64,000 nt of DNA. Source: Streptomyces ferrugineus (GTDB taxonomy: Bacteria; Actinomycetota; Actinomycetes; Streptomycetales; Streptomycetaceae). The stretch is from positions 7,787,001 through 7,851,000 of the forward strand of contig NZ_CP063373.1 of NCBI RefSeq assembly GCF_015160855.1, given 5' to 3'. Below, one piece after another: positions 35,618 through 56,990 of the stretch; positions within the stretch are counted from its first letter, which is position 1, and every line of letters begins with the position of its first letter. The notes below the pieces were generated by a model that was not told where the DNA came from, searched no databases, and saw only the letters and a program-made list of their open reading frames with translations. Made by a program: the position numbers and the translations under genes.

Positions 35618-35631
35618 TCGAAGCGCTTCGA
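35618..35631. promoter_or_regulatory. LacI-family operator, site 1
   Basis: Exact palindrome TCGAAGCGCTTCGA, 108 bases upstream of the lacI start. The same 14 bases occur at 51251 and 51411. The central CG and dyad are typical of LacI-family operators. Confidence 0.82.
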
Positions 35632-35708
35632 TAACCTATGGACACCCACGCGCGCCAGAGCTAGTGTCGAACCACCCTCACAGCCAGCCCTGTTCACACC
35701 GCGCACTG

Positions 35709-35722
35709 TCGAAGCGCTTCAC
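35709..35722. promoter_or_regulatory. LacI-family operator, site 2 (variant)
   Basis: TCGAAGCGCTTCAC keeps the 10-base core GAAGCGCTTC and one full half-site. It lies 17-30 bases upstream of the lacI start, where binding would block transcription, so autoregulation of the lacI-GH31 unit is likely. Confidence 0.75.
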
Positions 35723-35738
35723 AAAGCTTGGAGAGCGG

Positions 35739-36752
35739 ATGGTCACCCTCGCCGAGGTCGCCCAGCACGCCGGAGTCTCGGCGAGCACGGTGAGCTATGT
35801 CCTCAGCGGCAAGCGGTCCATCTCCACGACCACCCGGCAGCGGGTCGAGCAGAGCATCCGCGAACTCGGCTACCACCCGAACGCCGGTGCCCGCGCCCTG
35901 GCCAGCAGCAGGTCGAACATCATCGCGCTGATGATCCCGCTGCGCACCGACATGTATGTGCCGGTGATGATGGAGATCGCCATCGCGGTGGCCACCACGG
36001 CCCGTACGCACGGCTACGACGTCCTGCTGCTGACCGGCGAGGAGGGTCCCGACGCCGTGCGCCGCGTCACCGGCAGCGGGCTGGCCGACGCGATGATCCT
36101 GATGGACGTCCAGCTCGACGACGAGCGGCTGCCGCTGCTGCGCGGCACCGACCAGCCGTCCGTACTGATCGGGCTGCCCTCCGACACCACCGGGCTGACC
36201 TGCGTCGACCTCGACTTCAAGGCGACCGGGGCGCTGTGCGTGGAGCATCTGGCGACGCTGGGGCACCGCGACATCGCTGTCATAGGAGAGGCCCCGGCCG
36301 TCTACGAGCGGCACACCGGGTTCGCGGAGCGCACGCTCGACGGACTGCGGCTGCGGTCCCAGGAGCTGGGGATCCGGCTGCTGCACCGGCCCTGCGAGGG
36401 CGGCTACGACGCGATGGCCGTCACCCTCGCCCGCATCCTCGACGAGCGCCCGGGCACCACGGGGTTCGTCGTGCAGAACGAGTCGGCGGTCGAGCCGCTG
36501 CTCGCCCTGCTGCGCCAGCAGGGCCGCGCCGTGCCCGAGGACGTGTCGGTGGTCGCCATCTGCCCCGACCAGGTCGCCACCCAGGCCTCGGTGCGGCTGA
36601 CGTCGGTCTCCATCCCCGCGCAGGAGATGGGCCGGCATGCGGTCGAACAGCTGGTCGCCAAGCTCGACGGGCGCGGAAGTGACGAAGTCCTGCTGATCGC
36701 ACCCGAGTTGACGGTCCGGGCGAGTTCGGGTCCGGCGCCGTCGGCGAACTGA
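35739..36752 (+). CDS. LacI-family transcriptional regulator of the xyloglucan locus
   Basis: 337 residues from the ATG at 35739. The DNA-binding domain opens 'VTLAEVAQHAGVSASTVSYVLSG' with the hinge helix near 'GARALASSRSN'. The periplasmic-binding-protein-like sensor domain follows ('IIALMIPLRTDMYVPVMMEIAIAV', ending 'DEVLLIAPELTVRASSG'). The frame extends to 35571, but that would place both operators inside the gene. It sits directly upstream of the GH31 gene (62 bases) and next to two copies of TCGAAGCGCTTCGA-type sites, and matching sites stand before the importer operon and GH3. It is expected to repress the locus and to release when a xyloglucan-derived sugar binds. The effector cannot be read from the sequence. 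Confidence 0.93.
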   Translation: MVTLAEVAQHAGVSASTVSYVLSGKRSISTTTRQRVEQSIRELGYHPNAGARALASSRSNIIALMIPLRTDMYVPVMMEIAIAVATTARTHGYDVLLLTGEEGPDAVRRVTGSGLADAMILMDVQLDDERLPLLRGTDQPSVLIGLPSDTTGLTCVDLDFKATGALCVEHLATLGHRDIAVIGEAPAVYERHTGFAERTLDGLRLRSQELGIRLLHRPCEGGYDAMAVTLARILDERPGTTGFVVQNESAVEPLLALLRQQGRAVPEDVSVVAICPDQVATQASVRLTSVSIPAQEMGRHAVEQLVAKLDGRGSDEVLLIAPELTVRASSGPAPSAN

Positions 36753-36814
36753 CGCCCCTTGCCTCACGTGCCTGTACGCACGTCCCTGTCTGCTTTCCTC
36801 CAGGAGCACGCCTC

Positions 36815-38857
36815 GTGTATCAGCCTGCCGAAAACCAGCCCAAGGTCAGTCTCGCGCAGTCGTCCCCCACCGTCGGCACGTTCCGCGAGCGGGACGGTGC
36901 GCTGGAGTGGAGCGGCCGCCAGGAGACCGTTCGCGTCGAGCCGTGGGGACCGGACGCGGTCCGGGTGCGCACCCGCCTCGGTGGACCGATCCTCGACGGA
37001 CTGCCCGGTGCCCTCCTCGACGGGCCCGAGGCCACCGAGAGCTCGGTCAAGATCGGTGACGGCGAGGCGCAGTTGACCGTGGGCGCGCTGACCGTCCACG
37101 TCGACGCCGAGGGCCTGATCCGCTTCCTGCGCACCGAGGACTCCGCCGAGCTCCTCGCAGAGGCCCGCGCCCACTTCTGGTGGCCCGGCGCGCGCCTCTA
37201 CACGGCCGTCGGCAACGGCTACCACCGTCTTGAGCAGCGCTTCGCCGCCTACGACGACGAGAAGCTGTACGGACTCGGCCAGCACCAGCACGGCCGGTTC
37301 GACCAGAAGGGCCTGGTCCTGGACCTGGTCCAGCGCAATGCCGAGGTCGGCATCCCGGTCCTGTCGTCCAGCCGTGGCTACACCCTCCTGTGGAACAACC
37401 CGGCGATCGGCCGCGTGGAGCTCGCGCACAACGGCACGCGGTGGGTCGCCGACTCCGCCCGGCAGATCGACTACTGGATCGCCGCGGGCACCCCGGCCGA
37501 CGGCCAGCGCCGCTACAGCGCGGTGACGGGCCGTACGCCCATGCTGCCGGAGTGGGCGGCGGGCTTCTGGCAGTGCAAGCTGCGCTACCGCACCCAGGAC
37601 GAACTCCTCGCCGTGGCACGGGAGTACAAGCGCCGGGGCCTGCCGCTCTCGGCGATCGTCTGCGACTTCTTCCACTGGACCCACCTCGGCGACTGGAAGT
37701 TCGACCCGGCCGAGTGGCCCGACCCGGCGGCGATGGTGCGCGAGCTGGACGAGATGGGCGTCAAGCTCGTCGTGTCCGTGTGGCCGTCGGTCTCCCCGCT
37801 CTCCGAGAACCACCCGGTCATGGAGCAGCGCGGCCACTTCATCGGCACCCAGTACGGCCCGATGGCACACGCCGACTGGCCGGACAAGGAGGTCGCCTCC
37901 ACCGTCCAGGTCGCCTTCTACGACGCCACCAACCCCGACGCCCGTGAGTTCCTGTGGTCGAGGATCAAGCAGAACTACCTCGACCCGTACGGCATCACCG
38001 CCTTCTGGCTGGACGCGTGCGAGCCCGAGCTGAAGCCGGGCTTCCAGGAGAACCTGCGCTACTGGACGGGCCCCGGCCTGGAGGTCGGCAACAGCTACCC
38101 CGCCGAGAACTCCCGCACCTTCTACGAGGGCCTGCGCGCGTCCGGCGAGGAGGAGGTCGTCACCCTCAACCGCTCGGCCTGGGCGGGCAGCCAGCGCTAC
38201 GGCGCCGCCCTGTGGTCCGGCGACATCGGCACCGACTTCCCGACCCTGCGCCGCCAGATCGCGGCCGGCCTGAACACCGCGCTGTCCGGCATCCCCTGGT
38301 GGAACACCGACATCGGCGGCTTCCACGGCGGCGACCCGGACGACCCGGCCTACCGCGAGGTGATGGTCCGCTGGTTCCAGTTCGGCGCCCTGTCCCCGCT
38401 GATGCGCCTGCACGGCTTCCGCGACCCGGGCATGCCGCTCGGCCCGGAGATGACCGGCGGTCCGAACGAGGTGTGGTCGTACGGCGAGGAGGCCGGCGCG
38501 ATCATGGAGAAGTACCTGCGGCTGCGCGAGCGCCTGAAGCCGTATGTGCTGGACGTCATGCGCGAGGCCCATGAGGAGGGCCTGCCGGTGATGCGGCCGC
38601 TGTTCCTGGAGTTCCCCGACGACCAGACGGCCTGGTCGGTCGACGACGCCTATCTCCTCGGCCGCGATCTGCTGGTCGCCCCGGTGCTGACGGCGGGCGC
38701 GACGGCCCGCACGACGTACCTTCCGGCGGGCGCGGGCTGGACGGACGCGTGGACGGGTGAGACGTACGAGGGCGGTAGGACCGTGACGGTGGACGCCCCA
38801 CTGGACCGCATCCCGCTGTTCCTGCGGGACGGGGTGCGGCTGCCGGTGGCGGACTAG
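36815..38857 (+). CDS. GH31 alpha-glycosidase, probable alpha-xylosidase
   Basis: Retaining alpha-glycosidase of 680 residues from the GTG at 36815 (AGGAG 8 bases upstream). GH31 motifs: catalytic nucleophile Asp400 in 'YGITAFWLDACEPELKPG' and acid/base Asp470 in 'RYGAALWSGDIGTDF', with 'DFFHWTHLGDWKFDPAEWPDP' in the barrel. The 'WLDACEPE' form resembles alpha-xylosidases more than alpha-glucosidases, but this is inference. No signal peptide, so cytoplasmic. In the locus it would remove the alpha-1,6-xylose from the non-reducing end of imported xyloglucan oligosaccharides. It follows lacI and is probably co-transcribed with it. Confidence 0.9.
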   Translation: MYQPAENQPKVSLAQSSPTVGTFRERDGALEWSGRQETVRVEPWGPDAVRVRTRLGGPILDGLPGALLDGPEATESSVKIGDGEAQLTVGALTVHVDAEGLIRFLRTEDSAELLAEARAHFWWPGARLYTAVGNGYHRLEQRFAAYDDEKLYGLGQHQHGRFDQKGLVLDLVQRNAEVGIPVLSSSRGYTLLWNNPAIGRVELAHNGTRWVADSARQIDYWIAAGTPADGQRRYSAVTGRTPMLPEWAAGFWQCKLRYRTQDELLAVAREYKRRGLPLSAIVCDFFHWTHLGDWKFDPAEWPDPAAMVRELDEMGVKLVVSVWPSVSPLSENHPVMEQRGHFIGTQYGPMAHADWPDKEVASTVQVAFYDATNPDAREFLWSRIKQNYLDPYGITAFWLDACEPELKPGFQENLRYWTGPGLEVGNSYPAENSRTFYEGLRASGEEEVVTLNRSAWAGSQRYGAALWSGDIGTDFPTLRRQIAAGLNTALSGIPWWNTDIGGFHGGDPDDPAYREVMVRWFQFGALSPLMRLHGFRDPGMPLGPEMTGGPNEVWSYGEEAGAIMEKYLRLRERLKPYVLDVMREAHEEGLPVMRPLFLEFPDDQTAWSVDDAYLLGRDLLVAPVLTAGATARTTYLPAGAGWTDAWTGETYEGGRTVTVDAPLDRIPLFLRDGVRLPVAD

Positions 38858-38914
38858 GCGCGCCCGTCCAACTTCCGTTCACCACAAGTCAGTTCGACGA
38901 GATAGGTTCCCTAC

Positions 38915-40102
38915 GTGTCCTCGTCTCCGCTCGCCCTCACCCTCGCCAATCTGCTCCTGCGCCCGGCCCTCGGCTCCCGCCGCAGTCCGGACCGGGTCTT
39001 CGACCGGATCGCCGTGGAGGCCGGGGAGGCACCCGGTGACCGGCAGTTCGTCGACGACTTCCGGTCCCTGCTGGGCTGGTGGGCGAAGGCCGACAACCTC
39101 ACGCCGGTCGGCTGGCAGTCCGCGCAGGCGCATGTGCGCCGGCATCTGACCAACCGGGCCCGCGTCCGGCGGCTGATCGCCGAGCACCCCGAGATCGAGC
39201 GCGAGCCGATCGAGAAGCCGGTGTTCGTCGTGGGCCTGCCGCGCACGGCGACCACCGTCACGCACGCCGTCCTGTCGATCTCGGACGAGCACCGCTGCCC
39301 GCTGCTGTGGGAACTGCTCGCCCCCGACCTGGAGTTGCCGCCCCGGCAGCGCAGGAAGGCGATCACGACCGGCCGCCGGATGGTCCAGGGCACCGATCTC
39401 TTCGCGCCGCGCTTCCGTGACATCCACGCGATGGTGGCCGAGGGCCCGGAGGAGTGCACGTTCGCGCTCCCGCACGCCTCGATGCCGTTCTCCCAGGCCC
39501 GGATACCCGAGTACCAGGCGTGGCACCGCGAGCGGGACTTCGTCGACGACTACCGGTACCTCAAACAGGTCTACCAGGTCCTCCAGTACGGCCGTCCGCG
39601 CCGCCGCTGGATGCTGAAGTCCCCCATGCACCTGGAGAACCTGGAGGCGCTGCGCACGGTGTTCCCCGACGCCACCATCGTGTGGTGCCACCGGGACCCG
39701 GTCACCGTCGTGGCGTCCTTCTGCAGTCTGATCGAGCATGGCATGGCCATCAGCGTCCGTCCGCTCGATCTGGCCGGCATCGGCGCCACCTGGCTCGACC
39801 TGCTGAGCCGGGCCATGGCGCGCGGCCTGGCAGCCCGTGCCGCCATCCCCGCGGAACAGTTGGTGGACGCCCCGTACTCCTGGCTCGGCTCCGACCCGGC
39901 CACCGGCGCCCCCAAGCTCTACGCCGCTGTCGGCGCCCGCTGGACCGAGTCCGACGCCGCCCGCCTCCCGGGGGTCGTCGCCCGACCCAGGGGAACTCGG
40001 CGCCACACCTACGACCTGGCGCGCTACGGCCTGACCCGCGCCGAGGTCGAGGCCGCGTTCGCGGACTACAACGCGCTGCGGGCCGAGGTCGACCCCACCT
40101 GA
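38915..40102 (+). CDS. Sulfotransferase-family protein
   Basis: 395 residues with the PAPS-binding pattern of sulfotransferases: 5'-phosphosulfate loop 'PVFVVGLPRTATTVTH' (PRTATT in place of the usual PRSGTT) and 3'-phosphate loop 'IVWCHRDPVTVVASFCSL'. The N-terminal 90 residues are helical. No signal peptide is clear. The GTG at 38915 starts 57 bases after the GH31 stop and the gene is convergent with GH12. Its acceptor is unknown; none of the standard xyloglucan steps needs sulfation, so it may be a bystander in the locus or act on a lipid or small molecule. Confidence 0.82.
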   Translation: MSSSPLALTLANLLLRPALGSRRSPDRVFDRIAVEAGEAPGDRQFVDDFRSLLGWWAKADNLTPVGWQSAQAHVRRHLTNRARVRRLIAEHPEIEREPIEKPVFVVGLPRTATTVTHAVLSISDEHRCPLLWELLAPDLELPPRQRRKAITTGRRMVQGTDLFAPRFRDIHAMVAEGPEECTFALPHASMPFSQARIPEYQAWHRERDFVDDYRYLKQVYQVLQYGRPRRRWMLKSPMHLENLEALRTVFPDATIVWCHRDPVTVVASFCSLIEHGMAISVRPLDLAGIGATWLDLLSRAMARGLAARAAIPAEQLVDAPYSWLGSDPATGAPKLYAAVGARWTESDAARLPGVVARPRGTRRHTYDLARYGLTRAEVEAAFADYNALRAEVDPT

Positions 40103-40126
40103 GGCGACCCCGGCCCTGATGGCACG

Positions 40127-40843
40127 TCAGCTGCTGCTGACGGTCAGGTTGTTGGTGCGGAAGTCGAGGCCGCCGGACGACGAGGTGATCTCGTAGCCGA
40201 ACTGCACGTCACCGATCGTCTCGTTGCTGGACATCCAGCCCTTGGTGCCCGCTATCCAGCTCAGGATCGGCTTCATGTTCACGGAGCCGGAGTTGGAGTC
40301 GGACGTCCGCAGGAACGAGAACACCTCGTTGTGGCCGTTGCTGCCCTTGTACACGTTCCAGGTGTGACCGCCGAGGGTGACGGAGCCCTGGGAGGTGCCG
40401 ATCGGGCCGACGGCTCCGTTGTAGTTCATCCAGAGCATGATCTCGTAGTCGTAGTCCGTGTCCCAGATGTCGTACGACGTGTTGTACGCGCCGGATGACG
40501 GGACCGTGACGTTGTAGTCGCTGGTGAGCGAGGAGAGCGAGGCGATCGTCTTGTTGATCACCTTCTTGGAGTTGGGGTAGGACTTGATGCCGCCGGTGTT
40601 GGGGTGGTTGGCCCAGACTCCCCAGTTGGTGCCGGAGTTGGCCCAGACGCACTGGCTGCCGGCGCCGGAGCCCCAGATGTTGTTGTAGAGCGTGTAGCCG
40701 TTCAGGCTGGTGTTGCCCCACTGGTCGCAGGAGTTCCAGACGGCGGCCGAGGCGGGGGCGGAGGCGAGGCCGACGGTGGCGCCGAGGGCCATCGCCGGGG
40801 CCAGCACGGCCGTCGTGATCTTGCGCAGTGCGCTCTTTGCCAT
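40127..40843 (-). CDS. Secreted GH12 endo-glucanase / xyloglucanase
   Basis: 238 residues from the ATG at 40843 (AAAGGG 5 bases upstream). Signal peptide of about 33 residues ending ASA, then a GH12 beta-jelly-roll with no binding module. The nucleophile is probably Glu134 in 'DYDYEIMLWMNY', and the acid/base Glu218 in 'IGDVQFGYEITSS', both in the expected GH12 contexts. GH12 includes endo-beta-1,4-glucanases and xyloglucan-specific endoglucanases; the neighbours favour the latter. It is last in the leftward run, 39 bases after GH95. It is convergent with the sulfotransferase gene. Confidence 0.92.
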   Translation of the reverse strand: MAKSALRKITTAVLAPAMALGATVGLASAPASAAVWNSCDQWGNTSLNGYTLYNNIWGSGAGSQCVWANSGTNWGVWANHPNTGGIKSYPNSKKVINKTIASLSSLTSDYNVTVPSSGAYNTSYDIWDTDYDYEIMLWMNYNGAVGPIGTSQGSVTLGGHTWNVYKGSNGHNEVFSFLRTSDSNSGSVNMKPILSWIAGTKGWMSSNETIGDVQFGYEITSSSGGLDFRTNNLTVSSS

Positions 40844-40882
40844 GGTGTCCCTTTCCATGGGTGGGGGGAATTGCGGTGGGGG

Positions 40883-43096
40883 TTACCACGTCCCCGGACG
40901 GAGGACGTGGTCTTCTCCGGCGACGAGGTCGAGCGGTCGTGTGCCGCCGGTGGAAGTCCGGAGTTCGATGCGGACGGTGCGGGACGGTCTGAGGACGGCG
41001 GTCGCGCCGTCCCGCGTCCAGGACAGGTCGACCTCGGCGCCGAACCGTGTGCGCACGCCCCGCAGGCGGCCCTGCGGGAGGGTGGGGGGCAGCGCGGGCA
41101 GCAGGACCAGCCGGTCCGGGGTCGAGTGGACGAGCATCTCGATCAGTACGGCGGGCAGGGTGTGCGCGGCGTCCGCGTTGTAGACGTCGCGGTTCGGGTA
41201 GTGCGCGCTCATCAGGGAGGCGTGGAAGAAGTCGCCGCCCAGGACCTGGTCGAGGGCGTGGGCGACCCGCTCGCCGTCCCGGAGCCGGGCCGCGATCAGG
41301 GCGTGGTGGAGATGGCCGTGCGCCGAGTCGTTCTCGGCGCCGCGCAGTTCGAGGGCGCGATGGGCGGCCGCCGCGAGGCCGGGGGTGTCGTACGGGGTGA
41401 TCTCCTCCAGCGGCCAGACGCCGTAGAGGTGGCTGAGGTGGCGGTGGTCGTAGGAGTCCTGGAGTCCGGGCCAGGCCCATTCGGCGAGGGCGCCGTCGTC
41501 GTTGATCCGGTGCGGCGGGAGTCGGTCGGCGAGGGCGTGCCAGCGGTCGGCTTCAGGGGTGCCCTGGTGGTAGCGGGCGGCCGTGCGCAGCGCGTGTCGG
41601 GCCGCCGAGAGGTCCATGGCCGCGTTGACGGTGCCCCAGCTCGCGTTCGCGGGGCGGTTCTCCGGCGAGTAGGAGGGGACGACGATCAGGTGGCCGTCGT
41701 CGTCGGTGCGGGTGAGGAAGTCCTCGTAGAACCGGGCCACTTCGGCGAGGACGGCGGCGGTGCGCGGATCGTGGGCGCCCCGGGTCTCGTCGTGGTCGAC
41801 GAGGGGCTTGAGCAGCCAGTCGGCGCCCGCCGTCCACAGGTGCAGCGGGTACTCGCGGCTGAAGTGGTGGATGTGCCCGGACTCCCCGTCGGTGTGGGCG
41901 GGCGCCACCACGCCGCGGGTGCCGTAGACGGTGCGGGCGTTGTCGCGCCAGTGCTCCAACTGTCCCTGGATGAGCGCGGCGTGCGCCTCGGTCACCTCCG
42001 GGAGCGCGGCCGCCGCCGCGGAGGCGGTCTGGAGGTTGAGGTTGGCGTCGGTGGTGAACGCCCCCGACCAGGCGGTGTTCCAGTCGCCGGTCCACAGGCC
42101 GGTCAGCCGGGGCGGCAGCATGCCGGAGGCGGAGAGCAGGTGGTAGCGGCCGGCGGCGAAGAGGCGCTCCAGCAGTGCGGGGCTCTTCGTGCGGCGGACC
42201 AGCTCCGATCCGGGCAGGGCCCGCTCGTCCTCGTCGCCGTCGAGGTCGAGGCCGGCGCGGAGGTAGGCGGGGCGGTGCAGGGCGGTGTGCCGGGCGAGGA
42301 GAGGGGCGTACGGGTCGTCGTCGGCGCCCTCGGGCAGCAGGGCGCGCAGGGCCTGTGCCTCGGCGAGGACGTCCAGTTCGCCGGTGTGGCGGCGGACGCG
42401 GGTGAGGAGGAGCAGGGAGCGGGCGCCCTCGATCCGGATGCCGGGCAGGGAGGTGTGGGTGCGGCCGCCGGTGACGAGGGCGAGGGTGACGCCCGTGTAG
42501 GCGCGGTCGCTGCCGGGGTAGCGGACGCGGAGGTTGAGCAGGGCGCCCTCGGGGGTGCGGAGGGCGCCGTGGCCGACCGCCAAGTCGTTGGGTACGCCGG
42601 GGAGTTGGTGGTTCAGGAGCACGTCGGCGGTGAGGCCGGGCTCGGTGACGCGGTGGACGATGACGTCGTCGGCGCGGGAGACGAAGGCCTCGCTGAGCAA
42701 GCCGTCGCGCCGGGCGGTGATGACACCGGTGGTGAAGTCGACCTCGCGGCGGTAGGCCCCGGGCTGCTCGCCGCCCGGCCGCCGCAGCCGTATCTCGAAG
42801 GCCGGATGGAAGGGCTGTACCCAGTGCAGTCCCCGCCCGTCGGTGAAGCCCTCGGCGGCGGTGACGTCCCCGGCCAGCAGCCGGTCCTGGAGGTGCGGGA
42901 GGTCGGCGGCGAGGGCGGGGGGACGGGTGTGGGCGTCGCCGCCCGGGCGGACCAGGGTGTGATGGTTGACGATGACCCGGTCGAGGTTCGGATCGCCGAA
43001 CACCATGATGCCGTGCCGGCCGTTGCCGCTCAGGAAGGCGTCCTCCCAGCGGGCGGCGGGCGCCGGCTCCCAGGTGCCGTGCACCGGCCCGCTCAT
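40883..43096 (-). CDS. GH95 alpha-L-fucosidase-type enzyme
   Basis: Inverting alpha-L-fucosidase or alpha-L-galactosidase family, 737 residues. It starts on an ATG that overlaps the GH42 stop (ATGA). Diagnostic motifs are 'GLWTGDWNTAWSGAFTTDAN' leading to 'LNLQTASAA' (the Asn pair that activates water in GH95), 'EYPLHLWTAGADWLLKPLVD' and 'WPGLQDSYDHRHLSHLYGVW'. No signal peptide, so cytoplasmic. In this locus it would remove alpha-1,2-fucose from fucosylated xyloglucan oligosaccharides (or alpha-L-galactose from some seeds' xyloglucan). Substrate is inferred from family and context. Confidence 0.9.
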   Translation of the reverse strand: MSGPVHGTWEPAPAARWEDAFLSGNGRHGIMVFGDPNLDRVIVNHHTLVRPGGDAHTRPPALAADLPHLQDRLLAGDVTAAEGFTDGRGLHWVQPFHPAFEIRLRRPGGEQPGAYRREVDFTTGVITARRDGLLSEAFVSRADDVIVHRVTEPGLTADVLLNHQLPGVPNDLAVGHGALRTPEGALLNLRVRYPGSDRAYTGVTLALVTGGRTHTSLPGIRIEGARSLLLLTRVRRHTGELDVLAEAQALRALLPEGADDDPYAPLLARHTALHRPAYLRAGLDLDGDEDERALPGSELVRRTKSPALLERLFAAGRYHLLSASGMLPPRLTGLWTGDWNTAWSGAFTTDANLNLQTASAAAAALPEVTEAHAALIQGQLEHWRDNARTVYGTRGVVAPAHTDGESGHIHHFSREYPLHLWTAGADWLLKPLVDHDETRGAHDPRTAAVLAEVARFYEDFLTRTDDDGHLIVVPSYSPENRPANASWGTVNAAMDLSAARHALRTAARYHQGTPEADRWHALADRLPPHRINDDGALAEWAWPGLQDSYDHRHLSHLYGVWPLEEITPYDTPGLAAAAHRALELRGAENDSAHGHLHHALIAARLRDGERVAHALDQVLGGDFFHASLMSAHYPNRDVYNADAAHTLPAVLIEMLVHSTPDRLVLLPALPPTLPQGRLRGVRTRFGAEVDLSWTRDGATAVLRPSRTVRIELRTSTGGTRPLDLVAGEDHVLRPGTW

Positions 43097-45072: not shown

Positions 45073-47279
45073 CAGGCCGGCTCCCCGTACTGCACGCCCC
45101 GCCCGTTGGTGGCGACGTAGACGCGGCCGTACACGCGCGGGTCGCCGGTGACGGCCGCGCCGATCCAGCCCCACTGGTGCCGGTCGTCGTTGATCCGCAC
45201 CCAGGTCCCGGCCTCGTCGTCGGAGCGGTACACGGCGGTGATGGTCTCGGTGGAGCCGACCATGTAGACCGCCGGGTAGGAGGCGCCCCGGGCGGCCCTG
45301 CCGAAGCCGAGGGTGTACGAGGCCCGGCAGCTCGAGACCTTGGTGAAGGTGGCGCCGCCGTCGGTGGAGCGGTACAGCCCGTTCCCCTTGAGGCTCAGCC
45401 ACAGGTCGCCGGACCGGCCCGGTGCCACGGCGAGCTGGAACTCCTTGTCGCCGGAGTTCAGCCCCGTGGCCCGCGCGGTGAAGGTCAGGCCGCCGTCGGT
45501 GCTGGCGTGGAGGGTGCCGGTGGCGGTGTCGAAGGCGTAGAAGGTGCCCGGGTCGACGGGGTCCGCGACCGGGGTGGCGCCCTTCGGGAAGGAGGTGACC
45601 TCGGCCCAGGTGGCGCCGTTGTCGGCGGAGCGCTGGGCCGGGTGGGGGGTGCCGTCCCAGTGCACGAAGGACCACAGCAGCACGCTGCCGTCGGCGTTGG
45701 TGGCGATCGGCCCCGGCGCGTCCTGGGCGAGGGCGGGCTGTGCCTCGAACGGCGCCCAGGTCTGCCCGCCGTCGTTCGAGTAGGCCCCGTTGCCGTTCTC
45801 GCCCCACCCCGCACGGACCACGTACGCCGGCTTCGCCGCGGCCTGGGCGAGCCCGGTGGCGGTCCCGAACACGGGGTTGGCCGCCATGCCGCCCGACGGG
45901 GACGCGGTGAGCGACTCGTGGTACATCACGCCGATGTCCCCGTTGCCGCTGATCAGATGGGCCTTGCCGGCCGGCGGCGAGATCAGCTGACGGACGGACG
46001 TCTCCTCCAGTCCGCGGATCCGCGGGGCCCAGTGCTTCAGGTCGCGGGTGCCGTAGATGGTCGCGCCGGTGCCGTAGAGGACATGCCGGGAGTCGTACGG
46101 GTCGAGGGCGAGGGCCTGGATCCACCAGCCGAACTTGGGCTGGTCCGCGCCCCACTTGAGGAAGGGTGTCTCGGAGACGTCGAAGACGGCCGTGTCCTTC
46201 AGGGACGTCCAGGTACGGCCGCCGTCGGTGCTGCGGAACACCGTGTCGACCGCCGCCCAGCGGTTGTTGGTGGAGACGACGAGGGTGCCGGGGCGGCGGG
46301 CGTCGACCGCGACACCGCCGTACCCGAAGCTGTCGTCGGAGCCGTCGCTCGTCGTACCCCCCGGCTTCACGGGCGTGACCTCGGTCCACTTCCCGTTGAG
46401 GGTGCACAGCTTGTGCACGCTGCCGTCGGACTGGCCGTTGGGGCCGGGTGCGTTGGCGTACGTGACGTACAGGTGGCGGGTGTACCTGTCGTACGCGGCC
46501 CGGATCGGCACCTTGGCGGCGGTGCCGGAGGGCCGGCCCGGGACGGCTTCCCAGGTCCGGCCGTCGGAGGTGCGGAACAGGTTGGCCGTGGTGCCGTCGC
46601 CGTCACCCCAGCCGGCGTACAGGCTGCGCCCGGCGGCGACGAGCAGGGTGACGCCCTGGCCACTCGCGCTGGGGGTGGCCGGGAAACCGGAGGCGGGGGC
46701 CCAGGTGGCACCCCGGTCGGTCGACTTGAGCAGTCCGTCGTGCCGGGTGCCGAGCCACAGGGTGTCACTGTCCCGCGGGTCGACGAGCAGCCGCTCCCCC
46801 GCGCCCCGCCCGTCCTCGTTGGCCCCGAGCTTCACGGTGAGGTCGGTGCGGGCCCAGGTGGCGCCGCGGTCGTCGGAGCGCAGCACGGCGCCGTTGCCGG
46901 CCCAGGACTGGGCGTAGGTGCCGAGGGCGAGGTACAGCCGGTTCGGGTGCGCCGGGTCGACGGCCATGGCCTCCACGCCGAGCAGGTTCCAGTCGTCCCA
47001 GCCGAGGTGGTCGGTCAGCGGGGTCCAGCGGCGGGTGCTGTCGTCCCAGCGGTAGGCGCCGCCGATGTCGGTACGGGCGTAGGCGAGGCCGCGGACGGAG
47101 GGGTGGAAGAGGACGCCGGTGACGAAACCGGTGCCGCCCATGACGGCGGTGCGCCAGCGGTACGCCTGGCCGGCGGGGACAGCGGTGGCCCGTCCAGCGG
47201 GCAACGGAACGGTGGTCAGCGCGGCAGCGGCAGCCGTTCCGGCAAGAACAGAGCGTCTGCTGGGTCGGGACGTACGCAT
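45072..47279 (-). CDS. Secreted GH74 xyloglucanase
   Basis: 735 residues. Tat signal peptide with 'RRSVLAG' at residues 8-14, then tandem seven-bladed beta-propellers with many 'RSTDGGATW'-like repeats, the GH74 fold. The catalytic base is probably Asp71 ('YARTDIGGAYRWD') and the acid Asp393 ('ALDPYDSRHVLYGTG'). No binding module follows. GH74 enzymes are almost all xyloglucan-specific endo- or exo-glucanases, making this the most telling gene of the locus. It lies 149 bases downstream of the permease gene and is coupled to GH42. Confidence 0.93.
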   Translation of the reverse strand: MRTSRPSRRSVLAGTAAAAALTTVPLPAGRATAVPAGQAYRWRTAVMGGTGFVTGVLFHPSVRGLAYARTDIGGAYRWDDSTRRWTPLTDHLGWDDWNLLGVEAMAVDPAHPNRLYLALGTYAQSWAGNGAVLRSDDRGATWARTDLTVKLGANEDGRGAGERLLVDPRDSDTLWLGTRHDGLLKSTDRGATWAPASGFPATPSASGQGVTLLVAAGRSLYAGWGDGDGTTANLFRTSDGRTWEAVPGRPSGTAAKVPIRAAYDRYTRHLYVTYANAPGPNGQSDGSVHKLCTLNGKWTEVTPVKPGGTTSDGSDDSFGYGGVAVDARRPGTLVVSTNNRWAAVDTVFRSTDGGRTWTSLKDTAVFDVSETPFLKWGADQPKFGWWIQALALDPYDSRHVLYGTGATIYGTRDLKHWAPRIRGLEETSVRQLISPPAGKAHLISGNGDIGVMYHESLTASPSGGMAANPVFGTATGLAQAAAKPAYVVRAGWGENGNGAYSNDGGQTWAPFEAQPALAQDAPGPIATNADGSVLLWSFVHWDGTPHPAQRSADNGATWAEVTSFPKGATPVADPVDPGTFYAFDTATGTLHASTDGGLTFTARATGLNSGDKEFQLAVAPGRSGDLWLSLKGNGLYRSTDGGATFTKVSSCRASYTLGFGRAARGASYPAVYMVGSTETITAVYRSDDEAGTWVRINDDRHQWGWIGAAVTGDPRVYGRVYVATNGRGVQYGEPA

Positions 47280-47319
47280 GACATACCTCGTCTAATGCAA
47301 GAGGGGAGTGGAGAACCTA

Positions 47320-47388
47320 AAGGGGCGCGGGGCTGTTTCGATTTGCGGCTACCGCCGCGTGGGCGCGACCAGCCACAAACAACCCGCA
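47320..47388. repeat. Intergenic GC-rich repeat, copy B
   Basis: About 70 bases between the permease stop and the GH74 start, a near copy of 29341-29410 in opposite orientation. It could form hairpins in the long locus transcript and tune the amount of message between importer and glycosidases. Confidence 0.72.
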
Positions 47389-47428
47389 GCCGCCACACAG
47401 CCGAAGCACCCCATTGAGTGGGCGCCAA

Positions 47429-48364
47429 TCAGCCCTTGACGGCGCCCGTGAGCATGCCCTTCTTGAAATGCTTCTGGACGAAGGGAGAAAGGACGGCAAC
47501 CGGCAGCAAAGCCATGACCATGACGGCCATTTGGACGGCCAGTCCCGACAGTTGCCCCGTCTTGATGGCCTGTCCCAGCCCCACCGGCGCCTCCTGCTTC
47601 TGCACCAGCTGGATCATGACGTTCTGCAGCGGCATCATGTCCTGGTCGTTCAGATACAGCGAGGCGTTGAACCACGCACTCCAGTACCCGACCGCGTAGA
47701 ACAGCGTGATCACCGCGATGACGGCCCGCGACAGCGGCATGACGATCTGCCAGAGAATCCGGAAGTCCCCGGCGCCGTCGATGCGCGCGCTGTCGATGAG
47801 TTCCTGCGATATCCCTTGGAAGAACCCGCGCAGCACGAGGATGTTGAACACGCTCACCGCGCTCGGCAGGATCAGCGCCAGATAGGAATCCGTCAGCCCG
47901 AGGGTCTGCACCAGCAGATACGTCGGAATGAGCCCGGCGCTGAAGAACATCGTCGCCAGCAGCGTCATCAGGATCCAGCGATGCCCGAGCGACCCGGTCC
48001 GCGACAGCCCGTACGCGCACAGCACCGAGACGGTCATGGAGAACGCCGTACCGACGAGCGTGACCAGCACGCTGATGATGGCCGCCCGGGTCACCTGCCC
48101 CCCGCTGAGCAGTTCCTGATAGGCGATGAAGGTGATGTCCTTCGGCACCATCACCAGTCCGCCGGCCTCGTCGATGGTCTTGCGCGTGGAGAGGCTGGTG
48201 ACGATGACGATCCACAGCGGGAACAGGATCGCGAGGCAGGCGATGCCGAGGACGAGTCCCTTGCTCGCGAGGCCGACCTTGCTGGGCTCCTCCTCCCACA
48301 CCGGCCTCGGCGGCGCGGCCCAGGGGCCGGGCTTGCGCACGGGTTTGTCGATCACGGCGGTCAC
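47429..48364 (-). CDS. Sugar ABC transporter permease (MalG/CUT1-type)
   Basis: 311 residues from a GTG overlapping the upstream permease stop (GTGA). It has a cytoplasmic Pro-rich start and six predicted membrane segments beginning 'GLVLGIACLAILFPLWIVIV'. The EAA-like loop that contacts the ATPase is 'ELIDSARIDGAGDFRILWQI', and the gene ends with the usual 'FVQKHFKKGMLTGAVKG'. It is a CUT1-type inner component for oligosaccharide import. No ATPase gene lies nearby. Confidence 0.93.
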   Translation of the reverse strand: MTAVIDKPVRKPGPWAAPPRPVWEEEPSKVGLASKGLVLGIACLAILFPLWIVIVTSLSTRKTIDEAGGLVMVPKDITFIAYQELLSGGQVTRAAIISVLVTLVGTAFSMTVSVLCAYGLSRTGSLGHRWILMTLLATMFFSAGLIPTYLLVQTLGLTDSYLALILPSAVSVFNILVLRGFFQGISQELIDSARIDGAGDFRILWQIVMPLSRAVIAVITLFYAVGYWSAWFNASLYLNDQDMMPLQNVMIQLVQKQEAPVGLGQAIKTGQLSGLAVQMAVMVMALLPVAVLSPFVQKHFKKGMLTGAVKG

Positions 48365-49404
48365 TTCTTGTACACCCCCTGCTCGCCCATGAGATGGGCC
48401 ACTTTGTTCGCGGCCAGGACGAGGCCGATGCTGACGACTCCCTTGACGAGTCCGGCGGCGGCCGCGTAGCCGAAGTCCTGGTTGCGCACGCCGTTCCACC
48501 ACACGAAGGTGTCGAGCACTTCCGCCGCGCCCGGTCCCACCGCGTCTCGTTGCAACAGGATCTGTTCGAATCCGACGGTGAGGGCGTCACCGACGCGCAG
48601 CACCAGCAGCAGGGCGATCACCGGCCGCAGCGCGGGCAGGGTGACATGCCAGATCCGGCGCCAGCGGGAGGCGCCGTCCATCGCGGCGGCCTCGTACAGG
48701 TCGGGGCTCACCGAGGCCAGCGCGGCGAGGAACACGATGATCCCCCAGCCGGCGTCCTTCCACACGGTCTCCGCGGTGACCAGGAACTTGAAGGTGCTCG
48801 GGTCGGTCATGAGGTCGAGGCCGTCGTACCCGTGGCTGCGCAGCAACTGGGAGAGCAGCCCGGCGCCGCCGAGCAGTTGCTGGAAGACCGCGATCACCAG
48901 CACCCACGAGAAGAAGTGCGGCAGGTAGAGGACGGCCTGCGCGATCGCCCGCACCCGGGGCCTGACCACACTGTTGATGAGCAGCGCGAGCAGGATCGGG
49001 ATCGGGAAGAACAGCACGAGCTGGAGGAAGAACAGCACCAGTGTGTTCTGCACGGCCTGCCAGAAGGCGGAGTCCGCGAAGATGCGCTGGAAGTTCTCCA
49101 GGCCCACCCAGGGGCTGTTCAACATGGACACGACGCCGTTGTCGCTGATGTACGGGTCGTACTCCTGGAAGGCGACGACGTTGCCGAGGATCGGCACGTA
49201 GTTGAAGAGCAGAACCAGCACGAGGGCCGGCAGGGTCATCAGGAGCAGCAGCCGGTCGCGTCTGAACCTGACCTTGAGGCTCAGTCTCCCCGATGGACGC
49301 TTGTCCTCGGACCCGGTGACGTCGCCGGATGCCACCGGGGTCTTCTCACCAGGGGTCTTCCTCTTCGCCTCGGCCCTGCTCCGAGGCACCGTGCTGTGGG
49401 ACAC
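48361..49404 (-). CDS. Sugar ABC transporter permease (MalF/LplB-type)
   Basis: 347 residues from GTG 49404 (GAGGAGAAGG upstream). A charged N-terminus is followed by six membrane segments ('LLLLMTLPALVLVLLFNYVP' first) and the ATPase-contact loop 'DLYEAAAMDGASRWRRIWHV'. It pairs with the downstream permease and the binding protein as an oligosaccharide importer. It lies 27 bases after the binding-protein gene. Confidence 0.93.
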   Translation of the reverse strand: MSHSTVPRSRAEAKRKTPGEKTPVASGDVTGSEDKRPSGRLSLKVRFRRDRLLLLMTLPALVLVLLFNYVPILGNVVAFQEYDPYISDNGVVSMLNSPWVGLENFQRIFADSAFWQAVQNTLVLFFLQLVLFFPIPILLALLINSVVRPRVRAIAQAVLYLPHFFSWVLVIAVFQQLLGGAGLLSQLLRSHGYDGLDLMTDPSTFKFLVTAETVWKDAGWGIIVFLAALASVSPDLYEAAAMDGASRWRRIWHVTLPALRPVIALLLVLRVGDALTVGFEQILLQRDAVGPGAAEVLDTFVWWNGVRNQDFGYAAAAGLVKGVVSIGLVLAANKVAHLMGEQGVYKK

Positions 49405-49431
49405 GGCCTTCTCCTCGCCTCGAACCCCGGA

Positions 49432-51123: not shown

Positions 51124-51250
51124 TGCGTCAACCCTTCATGGCGCACCTGGACACCCGGCGGGGGCCGTCGGCTGCGGTGTCTTGAGCGGAACTGGCTGAG
51201 CTGAAGCGGTCCTCCGACCACTACGACGAATTCCGGAGTCGAATCCGCAG

Positions 51251-51264
51251 TCGAAGCGCTTCGA
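51251..51264. promoter_or_regulatory. LacI-family operator, site 3 (importer/GH74 operon)
   Basis: Exact TCGAAGCGCTTCGA, 127 bases upstream of the binding-protein start. On the minus strand a TTGTGT-N17-TAACCT promoter-like pair lies just upstream, placing the operator at about the transcription start, a normal repression position. Confidence 0.82.
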
Positions 51265-51381
51265 TGTTGCTGTGAGGTTAAGTGAACACCCATGGGTACA
51301 CAAGGGTCACCTCCAAGATTCCTCCGAGGTGTAGTAAGGGACCTTTCCTTATGCACCGCTTGAAGTAACGGCGCTGATCCC

Positions 51382-51411
51382 TTGACACTCGCCCTTGAGT
51401 CGAATGAGCAT
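51382..51411 (+). promoter_or_regulatory. Promoter-like element before GH3
   Basis: TTGACA, an 18-base spacer, then GAGCAT, directly followed by the operator at 51411. The -35 match is perfect and the -10 weak. Confidence 0.5.
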
Positions 51412-51424
51412 CGAAGCGCTTCGA
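51411..51424. promoter_or_regulatory. LacI-family operator, site 4 (GH3)
   Basis: Exact TCGAAGCGCTTCGA, 36 bases before the GH3 start and overlapping the end of a TTGACA promoter-like element. It places GH3 in the same regulon as the divergent importer operon. Confidence 0.85.
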
Positions 51425-51460
51425 AAGCACCAAGCCGATCCATCGCAAGGGGATCCCCAC

Positions 51461-54298
51461 GTGACCGCACCCACGCCGCACACGCCGCCGTTCCGTGATC
51501 GGCGACTGCCGTTCGCGAAGCGCATCGACGATCTGCTGTCGCGACTCACCCTCGACGAGAAGATCGGATTCCTGCACCAGTTCACGCCCGCCGTCGAGCG
51601 CCTCGGCATCGCGGCGTTCCGCACCGGCCAGGAAGCCCTGCACGGTGTCGCCTGGATGGGCCCGGCCACCGTCTTCCCCCAGGCCGTCGGCCTCGGCGCG
51701 ACCTGGAACACGGATCTCGTACGACGCGTCGGCGAGGCCGTCTCCAAGGAGACCCGCGCGATGCGCGCCCGCGACGAGCGCGTCGGCCTCAACGTCTGGT
51801 CCCCCACCGTCAACCTGCTGCGCCACCCCCTGTGGGGCCGCGGCGAGGAAGGCTACTCCGAGGACCCGAAGCTCACCTCGGCCATCGCCGTCGCGTACAC
51901 CCGTGGCCTGCGCGGCGACCATCCGACGTACTGGCGCACCGCGCCCGTCCTCAAGCACTGGCTGGCGCACAACAACGAGACGGGCCGCGACGTCACATCG
52001 TCCTCGGTCCGCCCGCGCGTCCTGCACGAGTACGACCTGCGCGCCTTCCGCGAGACGGTCGAGGCGGGCGCGACGGCCGGGGTGATGCCGGCCTACAACC
52101 TGGTCAACGGCCGCCCCAACCACGTCTCGCCGTATCTGAACGAGCACCTGCGCACCTGGACCGACGACGACCTGCTGGTCTGCTCGGACGCGGGCGCGCC
52201 GTCCAACCTGGTCGACTCCGAGCACTACTTCGACACCCACGAGGAGGCCACGGCCGCCGCGCTGCTGGCCGGCGTCGACAGTTTCACCGACCACGGCACC
52301 GACAGCTCGAAGATCACCGCACGGGTCCGCGGGGCCCTGGACAAGGGGCTGCTGGCCGAATCGGACCTCGACACGGCGGTGCGCCGTCAGCTCTCGGTCC
52401 GCTTCCGCCTGGGCGAGTTCGACCCGGAGTACGACCCGCACGCGCCCACCAAGGACTTCGACACCCCGGCGCACCGCGCCCTCGCCCAGGAGGCCGCCGA
52501 GCAGGCGGTGGTCCTGCTCAAGAACAGTGCCGGCCTGCTGCCGCTCGCGCCGGACACCCGGCTCGCCGTGGTCGGACTGCTCGCCGACGAGTGCAAGCTC
52601 GACTGGTACAGCGGCACGCTCATCCACCGCTCGACCCCGCTGGAGGGCCTGTACGAGCGGTTCGGTGCGGAGCGGGTGGAGTTCGCGGAGGGCGTGGACC
52701 GGGTCCTGCTCAAGACACGGGCCGGAACCTTCCTGCACGTCCCCGAGGCGGACGCCGCCGACGAGGTGCGCGGCGCGGAGGGCGCTCTCGACCCGGCGCT
52801 GCTGGCCGGCCGTACGGACCTGCCCGCGCTGACCACCGACCCGGCCGGCACCGAACTCGCCCTCATCGACTGGGGCGAGGGCGTGCTGACCCTGCGCGCG
52901 CCCGACGGCCGCTACCTCTCGGTCGCCGAGGACGGCCGGGTCCGCGCCTCCGCCGACCAGCCCGGCGGCTGGGTCGTCCAGGAGACGTTCCGCCTGGAAC
53001 CACACGAGAACGGACACCTCCTGAAGCACATCGGTACGGGTCGCCCCGTCTCAGTCGCCGCCGACGGCGTCAGGGTTGCCGATGAGGACCCGGAAATCTT
53101 CGAGCTGATCATCGTCGAACGCGGCGAGGACGCAGTGACCCGTGTCACCTCGCAGGCGGATGTGGTCCTGGTCGTCGCGGGCAACGACCCGCACATCAAC
53201 GGCCGCGAGACCGAGGACCGCACGACGCTGGCCCTCCCCACCCACCAGGAGCGCCTGCTGCGCGCGGCCTGCGCCGCCAACCCGAACACGGTGCTGGCCC
53301 TGATCTCGGCGTATCCGTACGCCGTCGATCACTCGGCCCTGCCCGCGCTGCTGTGGACCTCCCACGGCGGCCAGGCGACCGGCACCGCGCTGGCCCGCGT
53401 CCTGGCCGGCGACGTCTCCCCCGCCGGCCGCCTTCCGCAGACCTGGTACGCCGACGACAGCGACCTGCCCGACCTCCTCGACTACGACGTGATCGGCAGC
53501 CGCCAGACGTACCTCTACTTCGAGGGCACCCCGCTGTTCCCGTTCGGCCACGGCCTGTCGTACGCGACGTTCTCGTACGCCGACCTCGAGACCCGTACGA
53601 CGGACGACTCGCTGCACGTCTCCTTCACCGTCACCAACACCGGCGACATGACGGCCGACGAGGTCGCCCAGCTCTACGGCCGCGCCGTGGACCCGGCGGT
53701 GCCGCGCCCGCGCCGCGAGCTGCTGGCGCACAGCCGGGTGACGCTGGCCCCCGGCGAGCGGAAGGAGCTGACCTTCGACATCCCCTTGTCCGCCTTCGAC
53801 TTCTGGGACGTCTCACGCCCCGGCTGGCGCCGCGAGCCCGGCCCGTACGAACTGCTGGCCGGCGCCTCCAGCGAGGACGTCCGGCTGCGTACGACGGTGA
53901 TCCTGGACGGCGAGGAGGCCGCGCCGCGCCCGGTCCTCCGGCGCGGTCTGGCGGCGGCCGACTTCGACGAGCAGAGCGGCATCGCGATCGTCGACCGCAC
54001 GAAGACGTCGGGCGACGCGGTGACGCCGGCCCAGGGCACGTCGGGGGAACTGGTCTACCGGGACTGCGACTTCGGGGACGGCATCAGCGAGGTGTCCGTG
54101 ACGGTGGCGGGTGAGGGCGTGGTCGACGTGTCGTTGGACGGGGGTGCCGTGCTCGCGTCCCTGACGCCACAGACGCCCACCTCAGGACCGTACGACTACA
54201 CCACGGTCACCGCCGGGATGCTCGCCGAGGGCGTCCGCGATGTCCATGTCAGACTGCGCGGCCCACTGCGGCTGGCGCACGTCGGCTTCTCCGGTTGA
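51461..54298 (+). CDS. GH3 beta-glucosidase with beta-trefoil-like insertion
   Basis: 945 residues from the GTG at 51461 (AAGGGGA about 7 bases upstream). The upstream frame to 51395 would contain the operator and is not used. The GH3 barrel holds the nucleophile Asp243 in 'DDLLVCSDAGAPSNLVDSEH', with 'APVLKHWLAHNN' upstream. The second domain is interrupted at about residues 411-555 by a fascin/beta-trefoil-like segment ('VLTLRAPDGRYLSVAEDGRV') where many GH3 enzymes carry PA14. Next come the rest of the sandwich, an FnIII domain and a C-terminal CBM6-like module. No signal peptide. It is expected to release glucose from de-xylosylated xyloglucan oligosaccharides. Confidence 0.9.
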   Translation: MTAPTPHTPPFRDRRLPFAKRIDDLLSRLTLDEKIGFLHQFTPAVERLGIAAFRTGQEALHGVAWMGPATVFPQAVGLGATWNTDLVRRVGEAVSKETRAMRARDERVGLNVWSPTVNLLRHPLWGRGEEGYSEDPKLTSAIAVAYTRGLRGDHPTYWRTAPVLKHWLAHNNETGRDVTSSSVRPRVLHEYDLRAFRETVEAGATAGVMPAYNLVNGRPNHVSPYLNEHLRTWTDDDLLVCSDAGAPSNLVDSEHYFDTHEEATAAALLAGVDSFTDHGTDSSKITARVRGALDKGLLAESDLDTAVRRQLSVRFRLGEFDPEYDPHAPTKDFDTPAHRALAQEAAEQAVVLLKNSAGLLPLAPDTRLAVVGLLADECKLDWYSGTLIHRSTPLEGLYERFGAERVEFAEGVDRVLLKTRAGTFLHVPEADAADEVRGAEGALDPALLAGRTDLPALTTDPAGTELALIDWGEGVLTLRAPDGRYLSVAEDGRVRASADQPGGWVVQETFRLEPHENGHLLKHIGTGRPVSVAADGVRVADEDPEIFELIIVERGEDAVTRVTSQADVVLVVAGNDPHINGRETEDRTTLALPTHQERLLRAACAANPNTVLALISAYPYAVDHSALPALLWTSHGGQATGTALARVLAGDVSPAGRLPQTWYADDSDLPDLLDYDVIGSRQTYLYFEGTPLFPFGHGLSYATFSYADLETRTTDDSLHVSFTVTNTGDMTADEVAQLYGRAVDPAVPRPRRELLAHSRVTLAPGERKELTFDIPLSAFDFWDVSRPGWRREPGPYELLAGASSEDVRLRTTVILDGEEAAPRPVLRRGLAAADFDEQSGIAIVDRTKTSGDAVTPAQGTSGELVYRDCDFGDGISEVSVTVAGEGVVDVSLDGGAVLASLTPQTPTSGPYDYTTVTAGMLAEGVRDVHVRLRGPLRLAHVGFSG

Positions 54299-56847: not shown

Positions 56848-56990
56848 CTGCTTAGAACCTACGACAGGGCGATGGGGTTAGACAGACGGAATCGCGTCCT
56901 GCCATCCACCTCGCACACCTTCTTCACACGCTCTGACGGTAGCCGCCCCAGCCCCGGAACCACGGATGGCGCCGGGACCGGGGCGCAAGG

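Follow-up and report, generated by a model that had tools for sequence, protein, structure and literature searches.

Described xyloglucan systems and the Streptomyces locus

A scheme of cutting xyloglucan outside the cell, importing the fragments and degrading them inside has been shown experimentally for the cluster Ccel_2451-2458 of Ruminiclostridium cellulolyticum, whose binding protein recognises XXXG with a dissociation constant (KD) of 3.65 nM and is required for growth on xyloglucan (PMC4780118). The cluster is under the positive control of the two-component system XygS/XygR (PMC8576529). In our study, a locus of Streptomyces ferrugineus has been analysed which lies at 35.6-54.3 kb of a 64,000-base stretch of DNA (the window, positions 7,787,001-7,851,000 of a single-contig genome of 9.96 Mb) and encodes a LacI regulator, glycoside hydrolases (GH) of families GH31, GH12, GH95, GH42 and GH74, two permeases, a binding lipoprotein and a GH3 enzyme. 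An earlier note on this stretch had taken it for a xyloglucan utilisation locus. The enzyme subfamilies, catalytic motifs, shared operator, some remote operator sites and co-occurrence across the genus all agree with that reading, and we consider it very likely, with a probability of about 0.88, that the locus serves external cutting, import and internal breakdown of xyloglucan under LacI control.

In the proposed pathway, secreted GH74 and GH12 would cleave the glucan backbone, and the lipoprotein and two permeases would import the branched oligosaccharides with the help of an ATPase encoded elsewhere. In the cytoplasm, GH95 (if fucose is present), GH42, GH31 and GH3 would strip off fucose, galactose, xylose and glucose one after another. 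The LacI protein would act at the palindrome TCGAAGCGCTTCGA by repressing its own gene and both divergent transcripts, and an imported fragment would release it.

The locus resembles the R. cellulolyticum cluster in its predicted extracellular xyloglucanases, in a binding protein and two permeases without an ATPase gene in the vicinity, and in GH42, GH31 and GH3 enzymes that are cytoplasmic there and predicted to be so here; their ordered action was shown in R. cellulolyticum and would be alike in Streptomyces. The locus proteins that were scanned with Pfam include no importer ATPase, and four ATPase matches of the OB_MalK type lie elsewhere in the genome. XygS/XygR governs the R. cellulolyticum cluster, whereas in the Streptomyces locus a LacI protein would act on palindromes; the scanned locus proteins include this LacI protein instead of any two-component protein. 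Moreover, the R. cellulolyticum xyloglucanases are cellulosomal, whereas the Streptomyces GH74 and GH12 genes lie within the cluster, which differs also in holding GH95. Alpha-fucosidase genes are present in similar clusters of other organisms (PMC4780118, Figure 12 legend).

In actinobacteria, LacI proteins that act at related palindromes regulate cellulose genes, in one case together with a xyloglucanase (PMC4898821, PMC3377646). These CebR/CelR regulons share with the locus a LacI repressor, a 14-base-pair palindrome with an AGCGCT centre and the combination of importer, beta-glucosidase and secreted hydrolases. Their operator is TGGGAGCGCTCCCA and their target sugar cellobiose, whereas the Streptomyces locus carries TCGAAGCGCTTCGA and would respond to a xyloglucan fragment. 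BoGH31A and BoGH3B of Bacteroides ovatus are among the PDB matches of GH31 and GH3, and in this and other Bacteroidetes the xyloglucan enzymes are likewise clustered with transport. The Bacteroidetes loci import through SusC/SusD at the outer membrane, whereas the Streptomyces locus has an ATP-binding cassette (ABC) importer of the Gram-positive kind and no SusC/SusD pair among its scanned proteins. Further, 7kmp (second solved relative of GH31), 7kmq (first of GH95) and 7kn8 (among those of GH74) are presumably Xanthomonas enzymes linked to a xyloglucan locus; Xanthomonas is Gram-negative, with transport and regulation different from those of the Streptomyces locus.

Growth on tamarind xyloglucan has been reported for four of six Streptomyces isolates (Mut1, Alt1, Alt2 and Alt4, but not Mut2 and Alt3), and GH29, GH31_3, GH74 and GH95 are listed as xyloglucan families (PMC11475409). 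In the tomato root microbiome, a GH74 xyloglucanase and an α-xylosidase are among the bacterial genes linked to tomato loci, the species of origin not being named in the passage concerned (PMC9203511). No description of the gene set, importer, LacI regulator, palindrome or genus-wide regulon in Streptomyces was found in the open-access literature, which is a weak negative because it is limited to openly licensed papers. The overall scheme had already been demonstrated in R. cellulolyticum (PMC4780118), so that the novelty is smaller than supposed in the earlier note. The likely new elements are the predicted LacI/palindrome control and the extension of one cluster to a genus-wide regulon with a testable operator.

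Enzymes, operators and their conservation

On the minus strand, the genes of the binding lipoprotein, permease B, permease C, GH74, GH42, GH95 and GH12 follow one another from 51.1 to 40.1 kb (Table 1). The plus strand carries lacI, GH31 and a sulfotransferase gene on the left, and on the right GH3, in divergent orientation to the binding-protein gene. The minus-strand gaps of the gene models are -1, -4, 20, 27, 39 and 149 bases, and the 20-base gap is replaced by a 4-base overlap with permease B if permease C starts at the GTG at 48364. Coupling of GH74, GH42 and GH95, as pointed out in the earlier note, is visible in TGATG at 45072, where the GH74 stop and GH42 start have one base in common, and in ATGA at 43093-43096, a 4-base overlap of GH42 and GH95. 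Its family assignments also hold, since every named family scores above the Pfam cut-off except GH74, which appears in Pfam as BNR/sortilin repeats only and is identified from the PDB comparison. Other details had to be corrected: an exact operator, and not a gene, begins at position 35618, and the most likely start of lacI is ATG 35739; GH3 most likely starts from GTG 51461, 3' of an operator, and not from the TTG of the long open reading frame; and the sulfotransferase gene between GH31 and GH12 had been left out.

GH31 aligns with the alpha-xylosidase MeXyl31 (5zn6) over residues 30-674 with 669 bits, and this nearly full-length match together with the catalytic Asp pair places it in the MeXyl31 type. 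Three of the four solved relatives after MeXyl31 (7kmp with 353 bits, 2xvg and 5jou) are named alpha-xylosidase. The top solved relatives of GH74, 6p2m (509 bits) and 4lgn (503 bits), bear names that derive from their cellulose-binding domains, and the subsequent ones (6p2o, 2cn2 and others) are xyloglucanases or xyloglucan hydrolases by name. Similarity over the full length and two catalytic Asp assign GH74 to the xyloglucanases. NopAA (6sdu) is the best solved relative of GH12 with 149 bits, the second best reaching 94 bits. The solved matches of GH42 are β-galactosidases. Catalytic motifs were found in GH31, GH42, GH74 and GH12, the motifs used being those that we take to be characteristic of these families. 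In case of GH3, β-glucosidases are on top (261 bits), and a β-xylosidase (230 bits) and isoprimeverose-producing enzymes (150-158 bits) are also present, so that its exact target bond is not readable from these matches. The GH3_C match of this protein spans 352 residues against a 200-position profile, i.e. about 150 residues are inserted, and this stretch together with the C-terminal CBM6 is unusual in a protein without a signal peptide.

GH95 is the weakest match of the enzyme set (202 bits to 7kmq). The Glu, one Asn and the Asp align with the residues of solved relatives that we presume to be catalytic (Glu, an Asn pair and Asp), whereas the first Asn is replaced by Asp and the MNYW stretch is lost. 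By this alignment GH95 is divergent near the catalytic asparagines; Asp at the first position is also found in 8zbv, named α-L-fucosidase. Signal peptides were judged by eye: GH74 and the lipoprotein have twin-arginine-like signals and GH12 a Sec-like one, pointing to their secretion, and none was seen in GH31, GH42, GH95 and GH3. The earlier statement that one enzyme is present for every bond is supported in the own genome by family membership, and does not extend to all relatives, as GH95, GH74 and GH31 are missing from some of their loci.

The exact 14-base-pair palindrome TCGAAGCGCTTCGA occurs twice between the binding protein and GH3 and once 5' of lacI, where a copy with two mismatches follows. 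The whole genome holds six exact copies, three of them in the locus, and the reversed palindrome used as control is absent. Conservation around these sites was examined in 42 aligned intergenic regions, one from the window and 41 from a set of 53 neighbourhoods in other genomes, which were picked for containing one operator or more and for a start codon in the position expected. TTGACA at 51382-51387, bases 51407-51424 and both operators are invariant there. Some other stretches, such as most of 51272-51282, are equally conserved, and the operator conservation in this set is partly selection because the regions were chosen for operator presence; the counts over relatives given below involve no such selection. 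One operator would lie over the -10 element and start inferred for the GH3 promoter, which is the layout of a repressor blocking its promoter. A perfect palindrome at candidate promoters, conserved across species, suggests a LacI-controlled regulon.

Relatives were examined in two sets, with genes called by a simple G+C-based script. From the best 80 of 522 confirmed named relatives, the 64 loci whose sequence extends over 21.6 kb or more were counted and the 16 shorter ones left out. Of the 73 genomes of the genus with the binding protein, 51 other than the own one supplied the 53 neighbourhoods, two of them having a second copy; short contigs were omitted. In the 64 long loci, the binding protein, both permeases and GH3 are always present, GH42 is found in 63, GH12 in 62, GH95 in 59, GH74 in 45 and a flanking aldehyde dehydrogenase gene in 59. 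The low counts of LacI (22), GH31 (26) and sulfotransferase (17) mean little because these genes often lie past the end of the sequence available. In all 64 loci, the 1 kb upstream of the binding protein contains exactly two copies of TCGAAGCGCTTCGA. Similarly, 52 of the 53 neighbourhoods have two exact copies upstream of the binding protein, between or beside it and GH3; at L081 (L and G are our labels for loci and genomes) GH31 stands in this operator-bearing region. Only L097, a distant homologue, departs from this, with one copy that carries a mismatch. In 52 neighbourhoods of up to 20 kb, counting matches from 55% identity upwards, GH42 was found in 48, LacI in 44, GH12 in 41, GH95 in 38, GH74 in 31 and GH31 in 26.

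The best importer relatives are labelled almost entirely as Streptomyces, with one Kitasatospora. A phylum-wide search (E 1e-80) gave importer matches in 10 of 396 genomes, two of them outside Streptomyces. In the 20 kb read around these two, importer homologues are present, but neither the palindrome (at up to two mismatches) nor any other locus protein was found except a LacI-family gene at 30%. The importer is thus rare beyond the genus.

Co-occurrence was followed in 150 Streptomyces genomes including the own genome, where the binding protein was counted as present from about 48% identity upwards, all further matches being below 40%. It is present in 73 genomes, and partial or interrupted only in G098, G119 and G143. 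At least two exact operators occur in all 73 of these genomes and in 4 of the 77 without it; the reversed control is found in 22 of the 150, never more than once in a genome. GH74 of any kind (E up to 1e-50) is found in 69/73 versus 8/77, GH31 of the MeXyl31 type (E up to 1e-100) in 42/73 versus 5/77 and of the YicI type (E up to 1e-150) in 65/73 versus 18/77, and one or the other of these alpha-xylosidase types in 73/73 versus 20/77. The idea that loci without a MeXyl31-type enzyme serve another sugar was dropped because all 31 such genomes with the binding protein carry the YicI type; in G051 (L240) the YicI-type gene directly adjoins the GH3 gene.

Exact operators were also read outside the importer loci, at least 24 in number (3 in the own genome and 21 in 13 relatives). 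Fourteen of these 24 adjoin genes of YicI-type GH31, a LacI paralogue, GH74, GH43 or GH5-CBM46. In the own genome, one precedes a YicI-type GH31 with a LacI paralogue (L098), whose recognition helix is nearly the same as in the locus LacI (STVSYVLSG versus STVSYALSG), so that one or both of these proteins may use the palindrome. At L100 (3623-7303), also in the own genome, a second GH74 with GH36 behind it is divergent from a GH3 remnant of which only the first part and the CBM6 end are left, and operators lie between them. Separately, the palindrome stands 46 bases upstream of a GH5-CBM_X2-CBM46 gene in a relative (L138, 4231-5961).

Table 1. Features of the locus, with positions in the window
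Feature	Position	Strand	Basis or remark
Exact operator-like site TCGAAGCGCTTCGA 5' of lacI	35618..35631		1 of 6 exact genome copies
Second operator-like site, 2 mismatches	35709..35722	+	17 bases before lacI; similar position in most relatives read
LacI-family repressor (predicted), 337 amino acids, ATG start	35739..36752	+	Pfam LacI, Peripla_BP_3
GH31 alpha-xylosidase (predicted), no signal peptide seen	36815..38857	+	PF01055; MeXyl31 (5zn6) match; catalytic motifs
Sulfotransferase-family gene, probable passenger	38915..40102	+	PF13469; nearest solved 2zq5, 2z6v
Secreted GH12 endo-glucanase/xyloglucanase (predicted)	40127..40843	-	PF01670; NopAA 6sdu; Sec-like signal by eye
GH95, putative cytoplasmic alpha-L-fucosidase, 737 amino acids	40883..43096	-	PF22124, PF14498; 7kmq 202 bits
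GH42 beta-galactosidase, cytoplasmic (predicted)	43093..45072	-	PF02449 498 bits; both catalytic Glu motifs
Secreted GH74 xyloglucanase (predicted), twin-arginine-like signal	45072..47279	-	PDB relatives; two catalytic Asp motifs
ABC permease C, GTG start, overlaps permease B stop	47429..48364	-	PF00528
ABC permease B	48361..49404	-	PF00528
Oligosaccharide-binding lipoprotein (predicted), 563 amino acids	49432..51123	-	PF13416; RR motif and LLAAC lipobox
Exact operator-like site, binding-protein promoter region	51251..51264		
TTGACA, likely -35 of GH3 promoter	51382..51387	+	invariant in 42 aligned intergenic regions
Exact operator-like site over inferred -10/start of GH3 promoter	51411..51424		
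GH3 beta-glucosidase (predicted), C-terminal CBM6, no signal peptide seen	51461..54298	+	PF00933, PF01915, PF14310, PF03422

The sulfotransferase gene begins 57 bases 3' of GH31 and is found in 14 of the 52 neighbourhoods and at least 17 of the 64 long loci; it has no apparent role in xyloglucan use. Beyond the locus, the Streptomyces small RNA Scr5676 (Rfam RF02832, 138 bits) was recognised at 56720-56849 of the window, adjoining aminotransferase and aldehyde dehydrogenase genes.

Contrary observations and alternative explanations

Several observations weigh against xyloglucan utilisation. GH95 differs from most of its solved relatives at one catalytic asparagine, the binding protein had no solved relative in the sequence comparison, and GH74 is absent from the locus in 19 of the 64 long relatives. 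When one mismatch is allowed, the own genome holds 8 operator sites while the reversed control gives 5, and the six hits obtained at up to three mismatches were equalled by 22 of 100 shuffles; weight has been placed on exact copies only because the controls come this close. Among the 24 remote sites read, 8 show no link and 2 are uncertain, and two of the 14 linked ones (L123 and L125) depend on remnants of GH74 and YicI-type genes. The unlinked sites fall within predicted coding sequence in six cases (L099, L122, L130, L131, L137 and L140), before a short open reading frame in L132 and before a penicillin-binding-protein gene at the first site of L139, and the uncertain ones are near a sugar importer (L135) and 330 bases from a CE2 esterase (L136). 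The palindromes of L099, L131, L137 and L140 apparently lie in one coding region shared by the four genomes and are probably a coding coincidence. Finally, related species are not independent, so that P values for the co-occurrence overstate its significance; the evidence is the pattern itself.

The least improbable alternative is a general locus for beta-glucans or cello-oligosaccharides, in which GH12 and GH74 would be endoglucanases and GH3 a beta-glucosidase with the side-chain enzymes incidental. Members of GH12, GH74 and GH3 are able to act on unbranched glucans. Actinobacterial importers for cello-oligosaccharides are also under LacI proteins on palindromes with an AGCGCT centre (PMC4898821, PMC3377646), but the CebR site is not found in the window at up to two mismatches, where 0.6 would be expected by chance. 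Moreover, an alpha-xylosidase-type GH31 accompanies the binding protein in every one of the 73 genomes, and the side-chain enzymes GH42 and GH95 recur in 63 and 59 of the 64 long loci. A CebR-type locus was hence rejected as improbable.

Still less probable is an importer for aldouronates, the fragments of glucuronoxylan, with the adjoining enzymes forming a mixed hemicellulose set. JGI and some NCBI records label close relatives of the binding protein as 'putative aldouronate transport system substrate-binding protein', which has to be counted against the xyloglucan reading, and one remote operator precedes a gene of GH43, a family with xylan enzymes. On the other side, no alpha-glucuronidase or xylanase family is present among the scanned locus proteins, and across the genomes the importer and operators are accompanied by GH74 and an alpha-xylosidase-type GH31. 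The label is probably a name transferred from a broad family, and this candidate was rejected also. A chance neighbourhood of unrelated carbohydrate genes, although glycoside hydrolases abound in Streptomyces genomes, is contradicted by the conserved gene order and operators (64/64 long loci, 52/53 other neighbourhoods) and was rejected as extremely improbable.

A second operon and the meaning of the shared operator

A second type of operon bearing the palindrome comprises genes of a binding protein, two permeases, a YicI-type GH31 and a LacI paralogue. The full set is present at L121 and L126, parts of it at L124, L133, L234, L236 and L238, and only the GH31 and LacI genes at L098 and L139; with Pfam, its binding protein was examined at L121 and L133. 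The importer genes of L133 diverge from GH31, and L234, L236 and L238 additionally hold GH3.

It can be speculated, tentatively and with more doubt than confidence, that the genus has a two-level xyloglucan regulon with one palindrome, made up of the degrader locus and this second operon, and that species with the second operon only would be scavengers of fragments released by degraders. The second operon, in some species with GH3, would then handle short xylosylated sugars such as isoprimeverose. The palindrome is present in 12 of the 18 genomes which have a YicI-type enzyme but lack the binding protein of the degrader locus, and GH74 is absent in 11 of these 12. Against the two-level regulon, the 6 palindrome-free genomes of the 18 likewise lack GH74, so its absence is not special to the palindrome. 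Further, the palindrome, two permease-like genes and the YicI-type gene are found together in 3 of the 12 (L234, L236 and L238), two of which have the LacI paralogue.

Streptomyces are important decomposers of plant litter, and a split into degraders and scavengers among them is possible from these genomes. Reading the importer as one for xyloglucan fragments would correct the 'aldouronate' label, and the operator could serve as an inducible promoter. The shared operator would make the regulon predictable from sequence and open to testing in laboratory strains.

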